Source: Devosia oryzisoli (GTDB lineage Bacteria > Pseudomonadota > Alphaproteobacteria > Rhizobiales > Devosiaceae). Taken from it: 64,000 nt of DNA. This document shows positions 28,671-32,581 of this stretch, one piece after another (position 1 is the stretch's first letter; every line of letters starts with the position of its first letter). Position numbers and translations under genes: made by a program. Under the pieces are notes generated by a model. The model worked only from the letters and a program-made list of their open reading frames with translations. It was not told where the DNA came from and searched no databases. Location of the stretch: the NCBI RefSeq assembly GCF_014837245.1, contig NZ_JACYFU010000001.1:1-64000 (forward strand), given 5' to 3'.

Positions 28671-29309
28671 CTACCAGCGCAAGGCGAAACGGCCGATGAC
28701 CGTGCCCAGCGCCACGGTCATGGCCATGCCCAGCGTGTACCAGACGGCCATGAACATCATGCCCGTTTCCCCACAGTAAAAGGCATAGACGAGGGCGCCG
28801 AAGCCGGCGGCGACGAGCCCGGCGGCCGTGCCTGCCTGCGTTGGCGAGCGTGGGGCCGTGGAGCGCAGGGCAAGGAGCAGCGACAGCAACACCGGCAATC
28901 CGGTGAGCGTAATGAGCCAGGGGCAGACCATGGCCGTCCTCCCCATCAGCTCCTCGCGCGCCCAGCCCTGGTGCATCCACCCCATGGTCCCAAGTCCGAG
29001 GGCCAGCACGACCAGAAGGCCGGCAGCCGCAAAGGGCCAGACGATGCGCCCATGGGGGCGCGCCAGGGCCGGAGCGGCGGCGAGGCCCAGAAGGCCGAAG
29101 GCAAGGGTATATCCGGCCTTGGTCCAGAACATGGGGCTGCCATAGGCGCCCCCGAACGGGCGCCCCATCGTCAGGTCGAGAAACAGATAGGCACCCACCA
29201 CGGTGATCGCGCAGCCAAGCGCCATGGCGGCCAGAATCCGCCGCTCCAGCGTACGGGGACGCACCGGATGCAGGTCCGCGGCGAGGCGGTTGATCAGTTC
29301 GTCGGTCAT
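28671..29309 (-). CDS. nrsF: NrsF-like (DUF1109) membrane anti-sigma factor
   Basis: A 212-residue polytopic protein. A cytoplasmic N-terminal segment (about 1-25, MTDELINRLAADLHPVRP) is followed by six hydrophobic helices, as in DUF1109/NrsF proteins. NrsF proteins hold SigF-type ECF factors inactive at the inner membrane and release them on oxidative or metal stress, with cysteines used in sensing. Candidate cysteines here lie at VCPWLI and FYCGETG in the membrane part. The start overlaps the sigma-factor stop codon (ATGA), so the two are co-translated, the standard sigma/anti-sigma arrangement. Confidence 0.88.
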   Translation of the reverse strand: MTDELINRLAADLHPVRPRTLERRILAAMALGCAITVVGAYLFLDLTMGRPFGGAYGSPMFWTKAGYTLAFGLLGLAAAPALARPHGRIVWPFAAAGLLVVLALGLGTMGWMHQGWAREELMGRTAMVCPWLITLTGLPVLLSLLLALRSTAPRSPTQAGTAAGLVAAGFGALVYAFYCGETGMMFMAVWYTLGMAMTVALGTVIGRFALRW

Positions 29310-29857
29310 TTTGCGCCTCCCGCAAAGCGGGCCATGAGAGATTTGAGGCCGCGATGAATGGCGACCTTGGCCGCCGTCTCGCTCATGCCGTGACGGGCGG
29401 CCGCTTCCGCGACGCTCGCCCCTTCCAGCCGCGTCTCGCGGATCAGCGCCCCCGTCCGCTCGGGCACATCCGCCAGAATGGTCTCCACGTCCCGCCGGTC
29501 CGCCGCATTGGCGCTGTCGTCCGCCGCGAAGATCGGGGCGTCGTCATCGAGATGGACGATGGGTCGGATGGCATGATGGCGAACATGATCCACGAATTTG
29601 TGGTGCGCGATGGCGTGCAGCCAGGCGGTGAAGGGGCGGCTGCGATCATAGGTCATGCGGCGCCGGTGCACGGCGAGAAGCGTTTCCTGCACAAGGTCCT
29701 CCGCGTGGGACGCCTGCGCCGGCGTCAGTCGCCGGGCAAACCAGGGACGTAGATAGCGCGTCAATTCGGACAGCAGCCGGCGATATGCCCCGGCATCGCC
29801 ATCCAGCGCCGCCACCATGAGCGCGCGCAGCCGCATCTCCGTGGTGTCCGCCTGCAT
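29306..29857 (-). CDS. ECF sigma factor, SigF/EcfF type
   Basis: A 183-residue ECF RNA polymerase sigma factor. Region 2 includes HAEDLVQETLLAVHRRRMTYDRSRPFTAWLHAIAHHKF and region 4 GASVAEAAARHGMSETAAKVAIHRGLKSL. It is encoded directly upstream of a NrsF-like anti-sigma factor and divergent from a Met-rich peptide / cytochrome b / molybdoenzyme operon. A GTAACC-N15-CGAA promoter ends only about 11 bp before the chosen ATG (MQADTTEM). The mRNA would therefore be almost leaderless, or translation starts at MRLRALM seven codons later; GGAG before the first ATG favours the former. Confidence 0.92.
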   Translation of the reverse strand: MQADTTEMRLRALMVAALDGDAGAYRRLLSELTRYLRPWFARRLTPAQASHAEDLVQETLLAVHRRRMTYDRSRPFTAWLHAIAHHKFVDHVRHHAIRPIVHLDDDAPIFAADDSANAADRRDVETILADVPERTGALIRETRLEGASVAEAAARHGMSETAAKVAIHRGLKSLMARFAGGAK

Positions 29858-29867
29858 CAGGACTCCA

Positions 29868-29892
29868 TTCGCTGTTCCCGATGAGAGGTTAC
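29868..29892 (-). promoter_or_regulatory. ECF promoter for the sigma/anti-sigma operon
   Basis: On the minus strand GTAACC (29892-29887) and CGAATGG (CGAA at 29871-29868) are separated by 15 bp. The elements match the plus-strand promoter at 29939-29964, implying autoregulation by the ECF factor. Confidence 0.6.
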
Positions 29893-29938
29893 ACCCAGCG
29901 CCAGGAAAAGCGAGCGGCGTAAAAATGCTCCTCCTGAG

Positions 29939-29964
29939 GTAACCGCGGCGATCGCCATGGCGAA
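29939..29964 (+). promoter_or_regulatory. ECF promoter for the Met-rich peptide operon
   Basis: GTAACC (29939-29944), 16 bp, then CGAATGG (CGAA at 29961-29964). The transcription start would be near 29971, about 46 nt before the Met-rich gene. GTAACC/CGAA corresponds, as far as I recall, to the SigF consensus described in Caulobacter. Confidence 0.65.
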
Positions 29965-30016
29965 TGGCCTCCCGAGCCGCAACGGAGGGTTGCGGCATCA
30001 GACCGGGAGATTTTCA

Positions 30017-30301
30017 ATGTCCGCAAAGTTCATGAGCATCGCCGCTGCCCTTGTCCTGGCAAGTGCCGGAGCCGCCGCAGCGCAGGACGCAATGTCCACC
30101 GACACCATCGGGTCGAGCGCCATGGCGCCCATGATGAGCGACGACGATCTGGCAAAGTGCCTCGAACAGGCCAGGGCCATTACCTTCCCCGAGGTCGCCA
30201 TGGCCGCAGAACAGGCTTGCCACAGCCTGCAGAATGGCGAGGAAGTGATGGGCGGCGACGCCATGGGGGGCGGAGCCATGTCGTCATCGAACCCGATGTA
30301 G
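30017..30301 (+). CDS. Secreted methionine-rich small protein (MrpX-like)
   Basis: A 94-residue precursor with a signal peptide (residues 1-22, AAA|QDAM). The 72-residue mature part has nine methionines (26, 36, 39, 40, 62, 78, 83, 88, 94), clustered at both ends, around a short helical core with two cysteines (Cys48, Cys68: DDDLAKCLEQAR and AEQACHSLQ). It is first in an ECF-controlled operon with a cytochrome b and a YedY-type molybdoenzyme. In Azospira, the SigF-controlled Met-rich peptide MrpX is oxidised by hypochlorite and re-reduced by YedY; the same role is proposed here by context and composition, not homology. GGGAG lies eight bases before the ATG. Confidence 0.72.
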   Translation: MSAKFMSIAAALVLASAGAAAAQDAMSTDTIGSSAMAPMMSDDDLAKCLEQARAITFPEVAMAAEQACHSLQNGEEVMGGDAMGGGAMSSSNPM

Positions 30302-30328
30302 GCATAACATCGGCGTGATGATGAACAG

Positions 30329-30359
30329 CTGCCCGAACGGTTATCGTTGCTTCGGGCAG
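30329..30359 (+). other. Intercistronic hairpin after the Met-rich gene
   Basis: CTGCCCGAA and TTCGGGCAG form a perfect 9-bp stem with a 13-nt loop and no strong T-run. It may reduce read-through so that the small peptide is made in excess over the redox enzymes. Confidence 0.5.
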
Positions 30360-30384
30360 ACCATTCTTTAGGGCGGGGAAGCAT

Positions 30385-31230
30385 ATGGACGACCAGAGTC
30401 TGCCAGCCAGCAGAGGGCCACTGATCTATCGGCAATCGATCTGGACGCGCCTCACCCATTGGGTGTGGGTCTTGTGTCTCTTTTTCCTGCTGCTATCGGG
30501 CCTGCAGATCTTCAACGCTCATCCCGCCCTCTATATCGGGCAGGAGTCGGGCTTTGAGTACGACAACGCCATCCTCAGGATCGGCGCCGTCAACACGCCC
30601 GATGGTCCGCGCGGACAAACGACATTGTTCGGCCAGACCTACGATACGACCGGGATGCTCGAGATGAGCGGATCGGCCGACAACCCTACCTTCACCGGCT
30701 TTCCCGGCGCCGTGACCATTCCCTCGTACCGGGACCTGGCGACGGGGCGCGTCGTGCACTTCTTCTTCGCCTGGCTGTTGGTCGGCACCCTGTTCGTATG
30801 GTTCCTCGCCAGCCTGATCAATGGCCACATCCGTCGCGATCTGGTGCCCAAAGGGCGTGACGTGACGGGTCTGCCGCGCGACGTATTGGATCACGTCCGC
30901 TTCCGCTTCCGTCACGGGCGCTCCTATGCGCCGCTCCAGAAGCTGAGCTATCTCGTGGTGTTCGTCGTCCTCTTTCCGCTGATCATCCTCACGGGCCTCA
31001 CCATGAGCCCGGGCATGGACGCCGCCTGGCCCTGGCTGCTTGACCTCTTCGGGGGACGGCAGACGGCGCGGACGATTCATTTCATCACCATGAGCCTGCT
31101 GGTGCTGTTCTTTGTCGTCCATGTCATCATGGTGGTGCTGGCCGGGCCGATCAACGAGCTGCGCTCCATGATCACCGGCTGGTATCGCGCCAGCCCGGGT
31201 ACGGCGCGCGAGGCGGGAGACAAGCTATGA
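30385..31230 (+). CDS. Membrane cytochrome b (b561 / formate-dehydrogenase-gamma-like superfamily)
   Basis: A 281-residue inner-membrane protein with four main helices and histidines placed for b-haem: WTRLTHWVWVLC, GRVVHFFFAWLL, ARTIHFITMS and FFVVHVIMVV. A 65-residue periplasmic insertion follows helix 1 (about 45-115), which YedZ/MsrQ proteins lack. It overlaps the molybdoenzyme gene by four bases (ATGA) and most likely passes quinol electrons to that periplasmic enzyme, as MsrQ does for MsrP, but it is a different cytochrome family from MsrQ. It is second in the ECF-controlled operon. Confidence 0.85.
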   Translation: MDDQSLPASRGPLIYRQSIWTRLTHWVWVLCLFFLLLSGLQIFNAHPALYIGQESGFEYDNAILRIGAVNTPDGPRGQTTLFGQTYDTTGMLEMSGSADNPTFTGFPGAVTIPSYRDLATGRVVHFFFAWLLVGTLFVWFLASLINGHIRRDLVPKGRDVTGLPRDVLDHVRFRFRHGRSYAPLQKLSYLVVFVVLFPLIILTGLTMSPGMDAAWPWLLDLFGGRQTARTIHFITMSLLVLFFVVHVIMVVLAGPINELRSMITGWYRASPGTAREAGDKL

Positions 31231-32018
31231 GCAATCTGATCATCAACCGCCGGCGCTTCCTCATGGGTTCGGCGGCCGCCGGTTCGGGGCTCCTGCTCTC
31301 GGGCTGCGACCAGTTCGATTTCCTGGGGCAGCGGGACAATGGGGTGCGCAATGTCATCGAGCAGGCGAACGTGCTCACCTACAAGGCGCAGCGCGCCCTG
31401 ATCGGCGACCAGACGCTGGCGCGCGAGTACAGCGCCAGCGAAATCCGCCAGGGGCAGAAGCCAAACGGGTCAACCGAACCATCCACCCCCGAATACATGT
31501 TCCTGCGCCAGCAGAACTTTGCGCCCTACAAGCTCAAGGTCACCGGCATGGTCGATCGGGAGATCGAGTTCTCGCTCGGCGAGTTGCGCAACATGCCGGC
31601 CCGCTCGCAGATCACCCGGCACGATTGCGTCGAGGGCTGGAGCTGCATTGCCAAGTGGACCGGCACGCCCCTGGGGCCCGTACTCGACCAGGCGGGCGTC
31701 AAGCCCGGAGCCCGCTTCTGCGTCTACCATTGCTTCGACAACATCCAGCGCACGCTGAGCGGCGACATCTTCTACTATGAGAGCTCGGACCTCATCGACG
31801 CTTACCACCCGCAGACCATCCTGGCTTATGGGTTGAACGATCAGGTCCTTCCCGTCGCCAACGGCGCGCCGGTTCGGCTGCGGATCGAGCGGGCGCTGGG
31901 CTACAAGCAGCCCAAATACCTGCACACGATCCAACTCGTCGACGACCTCACGCCCTTTGGCCTCGGCAAGGGCGGCTATTGGCCCGACAATGGCTATGAC
32001 TGGTATGGCGGCATCTAG
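31227..32018 (+). CDS. Tat-exported molybdopterin oxidoreductase, YedY/sulfite-oxidase fold, probable lipoprotein
   Basis: A 263-residue protein. The N-terminus has a twin-arginine signal (NRRRFLMGSAAAGSG) ending in a lipobox, LLLSGC, with Cys27 as likely lipidation site. The sulfite-oxidase-like Moco domain follows (about 95-245), with RHDCVEGWSCIAKWTGTPL (Cys134 the probable Mo ligand), VYHCFDNIQRTLSGDIFYYE, and VANGAPVRLRIERALGYKQPKYLHTIQLVDD. It is somewhat shorter than E. coli MsrP. Its cytochrome b partner is encoded by the overlapping upstream gene. By context it probably reduces oxidised methionines or another periplasmic S/N-oxide; the substrate is inferred. Confidence 0.88.
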   Translation: MSNLIINRRRFLMGSAAAGSGLLLSGCDQFDFLGQRDNGVRNVIEQANVLTYKAQRALIGDQTLAREYSASEIRQGQKPNGSTEPSTPEYMFLRQQNFAPYKLKVTGMVDREIEFSLGELRNMPARSQITRHDCVEGWSCIAKWTGTPLGPVLDQAGVKPGARFCVYHCFDNIQRTLSGDIFYYESSDLIDAYHPQTILAYGLNDQVLPVANGAPVRLRIERALGYKQPKYLHTIQLVDDLTPFGLGKGGYWPDNGYDWYGGI

Positions 32019-32068: not shown

Positions 32069-32581
32069 TCAGTCGAGAGCGTCGCCGGTGAAGCCGGCCT
32101 CCTGACACATCTCGAGCGTGATCGTGGTGACGTCGAAGCTGCGATTGACGCTTTCGGTCCGCTCGCTCGACGCATCGTCGTCGTCTTCTGCGCTGGCCGC
32201 AGCATCGCTATCCGCCTGGTCATCCATGGTGGCGGAGTTCGCCGCAGTGCTCGTTGCGGCTCCTGCATTGCCCGATGCGCCGGCGTCTGTGCTGGTGGTC
32301 GCGCCGGTCGGTGCATTTTTCTCGTTGGTCACATCCGTTGTCGCCGTGGCGCTTTCGGTCTGCTCTTCGGTCATCGTGCTTTCAGGCTCTTGCGTGCCCG
32401 TCAGGCCCTGCTGCGCCTGAAGTTCTCGACACCAGTCCTTCACGGCGGGAATCTGCTCGGCCGGGATGATCTGGTCCCCGATCGTCAGATCCTCGGCCTT
32501 GGCGTCCTGGGCGTAGGCCGCTCCGGCGAGGAAAAGGCCGGCGAGCGGGCTGAGAATGGCGGCAGTCGCGAAACGTTTCAT
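32069..32581 (-). CDS. Secreted Ala/Thr/Asp-rich acidic protein with two terminal cysteines
   Basis: A 170-residue precursor with a signal peptide (residues 1-24, AYA|QDAK). An N-terminal segment has one cysteine (IPAVKDWCRELQAQQG), a long low-complexity middle (about 60-140) is rich in Thr, Ala, Ser, Asp and Glu (ATATTDVTNEKNAPTGAT, DDDDASS), and a short C-terminal motif is ITLEMCQEAGFTGDALD. The two cysteines flank the disordered region. No family is recognised. It converges on the ECF-controlled molybdoenzyme operon and shares its terminator, but I find no matching ECF promoter upstream. A good ribosome site (GAGGAGAC) lies before the ATG. Confidence 0.65.
   Translation of the reverse strand: MKRFATAAILSPLAGLFLAGAAYAQDAKAEDLTIGDQIIPAEQIPAVKDWCRELQAQQGLTGTQEPESTMTEEQTESATATTDVTNEKNAPTGATTSTDAGASGNAGAATSTAANSATMDDQADSDAAASAEDDDDASSERTESVNRSFDVTTITLEMCQEAGFTGDALD

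Follow-up and report, generated by a model that had tools for sequence, protein, structure and literature searches.

In Escherichia coli, MsrPQ, a YedY-fold molybdoenzyme exported by the twin-arginine translocation (Tat) pathway together with a haem b membrane protein, carries out quinol-linked repair of methionine sulfoxide (MetO), and it is regarded as the route by which quinol drives methionine repair in the envelope. In Azospira suillum, a SigF-NrsF pair is said to go with the Met-rich periplasmic peptide MrpX and with YedY1-YedZ1, an MsrPQ-like pair. In Brucella melitensis, bcrS-abcS is divergent from bcrXQP, with induction by hypochlorite (HOCl) and direct activation by BcrS (PMC8315932, 2021); in the same paper a bcrXQP mutant shows lower HOCl survival at 1.5 h and a bcrS mutant at 4.5 h, and BcrQ and BcrP, printed in the order Q then P, are termed homologous to MsrQP. 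Passages of PMC3420878, PMC3511200, PMC6180224, PMC4373377, PMC10949492 and PMC3441632 are also drawn upon. Here we analyse a five-gene block of this kind in Devosia oryzisoli, located within the first 64,000 nucleotides of contig NZ_JACYFU010000001.1 (assembly GCF_014837245.1), a stretch that we call the window. Its features are as follows.

28671..29309, minus strand: NrsF-type anti-sigma factor, a relative of NrsF, OsrA and AbcS (PF06532, E 3e-48; Cys 33, 129 and 179)
29306..29857, minus strand: extracytoplasmic function (ECF) sigma factor of the ECF16 type (Sigma70_r2 and r4_2)
29868..29892, minus strand: ECF16-type promoter of the sigma/anti-sigma operon, GTAAC-N16-CGAA
29939..29964, plus strand: ECF16-type promoter of the X-cytochrome-enzyme operon, GTAAC-N17-CGAA (GTAAC is preceded by G, not T/C)
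30017..30301, plus strand: X, a secreted Met-rich peptide of 94 aa (central C-x19-C helical hairpin, Met-rich ends predicted to be disordered)
30385..31230, plus strand: PF01292 cytochrome b with the FdnI fold (PF01292, E 7e-23; beta-domain insertion after helix 1)
31227..32018, plus strand: Tat-exported molybdoenzyme, a probable lipoprotein of the sulfite-oxidase/YedY superfamily (PF00174, E 4e-29; below the MsrP cut-off)

We conclude that the block probably forms an oxidant-induced periplasmic methionine redox buffer. All five genes lie where a preceding sequence-only reading had placed them, each with a Pfam match except X, and the pairing that it proposed between the sigma factor and an anti-sigma factor was upheld, the DUF1109/NrsF-family gene following directly on the sigma gene with a 4-base overlap and a PF06532 match; the cytochrome and enzyme genes likewise overlap by 4 bases. 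Its count of nine Met and two Cys in the 72 mature residues of X was reproduced, with the cleavage site placed by eye, and corresponds to an enrichment in Met (binomial P of 6e-5 at an assumed background of 2.4% Met). The same reading had seen the block as the logic of SigF/NrsF-MrpX-YedYZ assembled with a different cytochrome, and the family, promoter and fold data bear this out: in both systems a sigma/anti-sigma pair is accompanied by a periplasmic peptide rich in Met and by a molybdoenzyme that has a haem-bearing partner in the membrane, but in the window the place of YedYZ is taken by a PF01292 cytochrome and an enzyme with a lipobox.

The further suggestion that the system might be undescribed did not stand, because the five-gene layout, the ECF16 promoter and HOCl induction were already in print for Brucella (PMC8315932), a layout that the sequence-only reading does not cite. 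The window follows the published arrangement of divergent sigma-antisigma and X-Q-P genes with ECF16 promoters, and it shares with bcrS-abcS/bcrXQP, as printed, the gene order, Q before P, the NrsF cysteines C129 and C179 and a Met-rich X. The X proteins differ: that of B. melitensis is an MXKDX repeat protein, whereas that of the window carries Met repeats around a two-Cys core. The HOCl induction and protection reported in that paper for this layout would, by analogy, favour the redox buffer. The layout and the logic are known; what sets the block apart as a new variant is its two-Cys X together with its enzyme pair.

The sigma factor was assigned to ECF16 on the basis of its NrsF partner and of the promoter type, for which the published consensus is (T/C)GTAAC-N17-CGAA (PMC8315932). 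The pattern GTAAC-N15-18-CGAA occurs exactly twice in the window, once ahead of each operon (N16 and N17), and 56 times across all 140 collected loci (1.67 Mb); a divergent promoter pair is present in 17 of the 19 sigma-linked loci, the window counted among them, with one site in locus L167 and none in L087. The predicted control of both operons by the ECF16 sigma factor is well supported by these sites. Since the promoter of the sigma operon ends almost at the ATG given above, translation may start at a later ATG, giving a protein of 176 aa. A search of the window's own genome for additional regulon members with TGTAAC-N14-18-GCGAA, a pattern that misses the X promoter (GGTAAC), returned four sites, whereas the reversed control returned eight, and the three sites outside the window are therefore indistinguishable from chance. 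The NrsF protein scores 112 bits against the narrower NCBIfam NrsF equivalog model and misses its cut-off of 300. Its Cys 129 and 179 correspond to the positions printed for OsrA and AbcS; among 15 aligned NrsF relatives, the first of the two is absent from L095.

The cytochrome scores 81.8 bits against PF01292 (cut-off 30.1) and has no match at E<=1 to the MsrQ model NF003831 (cut-off 130 bits), which does detect true MsrQ. Four conserved histidines, H25, H125, H232 and H246, are invariant in 27 aligned rows and are predicted to bind haem. The AlphaFold2 model (mean predicted local distance difference test score [pLDDT], 85.5) consists of four long helices and a small beta domain, for which about 60 residues inserted between the first two helices account. 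The only Foldseek match below 0.001 was FdnI (1kqf_C; E 7e-4; Z 14.2, root-mean-square deviation 3.1, 192 residues aligned), and the comparison with HyaC (6g94_A) gave Z 12.1. In fold and in its four invariant histidines the protein thus resembles the FdnI and HyaC cytochromes b, unlike which it has a YedY-type partner enzyme and bears the beta domain in the loop after helix 1. The sequence-only reading had described a 65-residue insertion relative to MsrQ. The insertion is real, being absent from the short PF01292 relatives in L044, L059, L076 and L085; MsrQ was the wrong comparator, because the cytochrome belongs to another family. Of the 60 regions fetched from the window's order, 59 have a relative of the cytochrome adjoining the enzyme gene, and the pairing is therefore not a matter of chance.

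The enzyme reaches 84.4 bits against the MsrP model NF003767 and misses its cut-off of 207. MsrP/YedY is nevertheless its nearest named family in both NCBIfam and PDB (best PDB profile match, YedY 1xdq; E 2.4e-25). C134, E136 and H194 are invariant across 31 aligned enzymes and align with the C, E and H of YedY in a profile alignment, and by comparison with YedY we take them to be the active-site residues. The lipid anchor proposed earlier stays probable: a Tat RR motif and a lipobox occur in 129 of 136 distinct relatives in a simple motif search run without a control. The lipobox Cys is followed by Asp in 95 relatives, and Asp at this position of a lipoprotein favours inner-membrane retention in E. 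coli. A true MsrPQ pair was ruled out by the family models (84 against 207 bits for the enzyme, and no MsrQ match for the cytochrome); the lipobox and the position of the cytochrome gene ahead of the enzyme gene also set the window apart from E. coli MsrPQ. Among the matches listed in the open-licence PMC literature, none was found to describe an enzyme-cytochrome pair of this kind as reducing MetO. Of the relatives that carry a name, those closest to the enzyme are from Devosia (86% identity), and we therefore call the window's genus Devosia-type.

PF00174 is the sulfite-oxidase superfamily, and the module could instead be a quinone-linked sulfite dehydrogenase, whose cytochrome would hand electrons to quinone and whose X would only shield the enzyme from oxidants. 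The enzyme does show weak matches to the NCBIfam models of SorA, SoxC and SorT; the SigF target YedY is read as a sulfite oxidase in the Caulobacter paper, and other ECF sigma factors, RpoE1 and RpoE4 of Sinorhizobium (ECF26), respond to sulfite compounds. Set against this, the scores of 58, 44 and 32 bits for SorA, SoxC and SorT miss the respective cut-offs of 600, 420 and 570 and lie below that for MsrP, and YedY scores above the sulfite oxidases in PDB. The genomic distribution of the enzyme and the neighbours of its gene also argue for MetO, as set out next, and we regard sulfite oxidation as improbable; it is kept as the weaker of the two readings.

At E<=1e-20, 124 of the order's 397 genomes have a relative of the enzyme, counting a distant group as well as at least one MsrP (G152); at E<=1e-50 the figure is 89. 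Across the order, 40 genomes have both this enzyme and MsrP, 49 only this enzyme, 222 only MsrP and 86 neither, a negative association (Fisher P of 4e-6, not corrected for relatedness). The window's family was sampled with 21 genomes: 19 have the enzyme without MsrP, one has both, one has MsrP only and none has neither; in 12 genomes of the genus, MsrP is present in none and this enzyme in all. A little-studied enzyme type thus seems to take the place of the textbook MsrP. In five of the 59 regions with both cytochrome and enzyme genes (L051, L054, L055, L056 and L075), no more than 260 bases separate the module from an msrA or msrB gene, each of these neighbours being confirmed by Pfam or NCBIfam; L055 and L056 have both msrA and msrB as well as an X-like peptide upstream. 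At assumed backgrounds of 0.5, 1 and 2%, the chance probability of such adjacency is 1e-5, 3e-4 and 7e-3. Outside these five, msrB lies farther away in L048 (2.0 kb) and in L113 (0.9 kb, behind a fasciclin gene). The msr neighbours and the presence of the enzyme without MsrP would favour MetO reduction over sulfite oxidation.

The module is also found with a second regulatory set. In seven loci (L052, L070, L080, L090, L112, L113 and L126) it adjoins a different ECF sigma factor, an RskA-like anti-sigma factor and a secreted fasciclin protein, with RskA_C, sigma and Fasciclin confirmed by Pfam in L113, and because of this second set we suggest that the enzyme pair has repeatedly been recruited to envelope-stress sigma factors. 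The recurrent neighbours of the sigma-free modules mostly reflect clade synteny.

X itself has no Pfam match at E<=1 and no PDB profile match at E<=5, and it scores 22.2 bits against the MXKDX repeat model TIGR02953 (cut-off 41); at E<=0.01, this model picks up 16 of 20 X relatives. In all nine Devosia-type X proteins, Met repeats flank a conserved C-x19-C core, modelled in the window's X as two helices with a pLDDT of about 83 (59.7 on average for the whole peptide). Such a core would suit a protein whose chief role is metal binding, for example of copper or heavy metals, or disulfide formation, in which case the operon would be a metal-stress response, and Caulobacter SigF is reported to respond to chromate and cadmium. 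We consider this reading quite improbable, given that the mature X relatives of the sigma-linked loci L073, L087, L088 and L122 have no Cys and that the enzyme type and the msr neighbours indicate Met oxidation. By a count made by eye, the C-x19-C spacing also occurs in plain repeat proteins (L039, L084 and L167).

The sequence-only reading expected the Met-rich gene to co-occur with the enzyme, and the outcome was split: X tracks the sigma/NrsF pair and does not track the enzyme. Among 37 genomes of the genus, all have the enzyme, 30 have NrsF and 19 have X; every X genome is NrsF-positive, so that X is present in 19 of 30 NrsF-positive and 0 of 7 NrsF-negative genomes (Fisher P of 0.003). 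These counts include one genome that is 62% complete (G818) and three matches in two pieces (enzyme in G826, NrsF in G820, X in G809). The distance from NrsF to the enzyme gene is 1942 to 2067 bases in the 19 genomes with X and 1579 to 1693 bases in the 10 X-less genomes with linked genes, and X was therefore gained or lost as a unit; in the eleventh X-less NrsF-positive genome, G822, NrsF and the enzyme gene are separated by 94 kb. Among 136 distinct modules, 16 of the 19 that are sigma-linked have X as a neighbour, as do 8 of the 117 others, and in a set spread over genera the figures are 8 of 9 and 7 of 51. Since X follows sigma/NrsF in both the genome and the locus counts, its tie to the sigma regulon is closer than its tie to the enzyme.

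In the 136-module table, X was detected by a crude filter (a signal-peptide-like start and 10% Met), and the sigma and X labels were assigned by hand. The loci are not independent, one exact duplicate having been removed, and L101 (broken genes) and L168 (a broken sigma gene and an X-like gene, both downstream) were left out. The sigma pair of L087 is downstream, not divergent; filter matches in L031, L109, L135 and L140, as well as the second matches in L092 and L096, were dismissed as spurious on inspection; and of the eight X-like genes found in loci with no linked sigma pair, some are downstream or dissimilar (L058, L059, L063 and L064). L058 4032-4310 and L059 6605-6886 encode very Met-rich (26%), secreted-looking peptides, downstream of the distant short-cytochrome form of the module. 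In Candidatus Devosia symbiotica (L101), the genes for the sigma factor, NrsF and the cytochrome give nothing but overlapping partial matches, which look like signs of decay. In the window, the minus strand directly past the enzyme gene (32069-32581) encodes a secreted-looking protein of 170 aa, rich in Asp, Ala, Thr and Ser and without a Pfam match.

The genes, the promoter pair, the fold and family classes, the presence of the enzyme without MsrP in the family and the msrA/msrB neighbours of some relatives are read from the sequences themselves; the signal, substrate, electron flow and docking are what we infer from them. In the redox buffer, NrsF would hold the ECF16 sigma factor until oxidation, probably by reactive chlorine acting through the periplasm-facing C179 of NrsF, releases it. 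The freed sigma factor would then act at the two divergent promoters, switching on both the sigma/anti-sigma operon and that of X, the cytochrome and the enzyme. X would act as a sacrificial methionine sink, and the lipid-anchored molybdoenzyme would reduce the Met sulfoxides of X and of other envelope proteins with electrons passed from quinol through the presumably di-haem FdnI-type cytochrome, whose beta domain probably docks the enzyme.

Several observations weigh against this scheme. MsrP is co-present in 40 of the 89 enzyme-bearing genomes of the order; L055 and L056 share one genus, and the msr adjacency is weak at the assumed 2% background (P of 0.007). Loss of bcrS alone gives only a late HOCl defect (PMC8315932), and ECF16 signals reported elsewhere are the two metals named above for Caulobacter SigF and H2O2 in Bradyrhizobium, with fusions to Sinorhizobium RpoE7 unresponsive to H2O2, Cd and chromate. 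Most modules are seen without an adjacent sigma factor or X, from which it follows that the enzyme has a wider job, and 11 of the 30 NrsF-positive genomes of the genus lack X, so that the module does not need it. These last two points, the former in the shape of the 8 X-bearing modules among the 117 that are sigma-free, suit a general envelope MetO reductase with X as an accessory substrate that has no buffering role. That X tracks the sigma system and is encoded directly after the ECF16 promoter, ahead of the cytochrome and the enzyme, argues the other way, and we judge a general reductase of this kind rather unlikely, the redox buffer being preferred.

The comparison with Brucella bears on the identity of the published BcrQ and BcrP. 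One printed B. melitensis promoter string was found in 0 of 394 genomes of the family, and neither of the two printed strings was found in the loci searched for them. Brucella tritici (L122) has, in the same order as the window, a sigma factor, NrsF, an MXKDX-like peptide, a cytochrome nearest to hydrogenase cytochrome b and an enzyme that is 60% identical to the window enzyme and scores 101 of the 207 bits for MsrP, and thus a non-MsrPQ pair. Among 35 genomes of the genus Brucella, six have this enzyme type and nine have NrsF above the cut-off; all six enzyme genomes are NrsF-positive, with NrsF beside the module in five, one of which (G773) has the cytochrome and NrsF in pieces. In all 11 intact Brucella-genus MsrP loci examined (the broken L213 was left out), MsrP is followed by an MsrQ-like gene, and all five such genes scanned pass the MsrQ cut-off. 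This order is the reverse of the printed bcrQ-bcrP order, which the window module shares. Gene order and the B. tritici locus suggest that the published BcrQ and BcrP are of the same type as the window pair. One Brucella-genus locus (L234, 5966-7607) has a sigma factor, NrsF and an MXKDX-like peptide without an adjacent enzyme pair, the pair lying on another contig.

More broadly, we tentatively propose, as a possibility that falls somewhat short of an even chance, that the PF01292 cytochrome and the Tat lipoprotein constitute a second, independent quinol-driven periplasmic MetO reductase, which would be widespread in Alphaproteobacteria and would replace MsrPQ in Devosia-type bacteria. At least two unrelated ECF systems would switch it on, one with NrsF and X and one with an RskA-like protein and fasciclin, and the Devosia X would be a hybrid, its two-Cys hairpin adding a thiol or disulfide function to the methionine sink. 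The published Brucella Q and P may be the present pair and not MsrPQ. Given that MsrP is found in none of the 12 genomes of the genus but this enzyme in every one, quinol-linked repair of envelope methionine may have been invented twice, or may have been re-plumbed onto a formate-dehydrogenase-type cytochrome.

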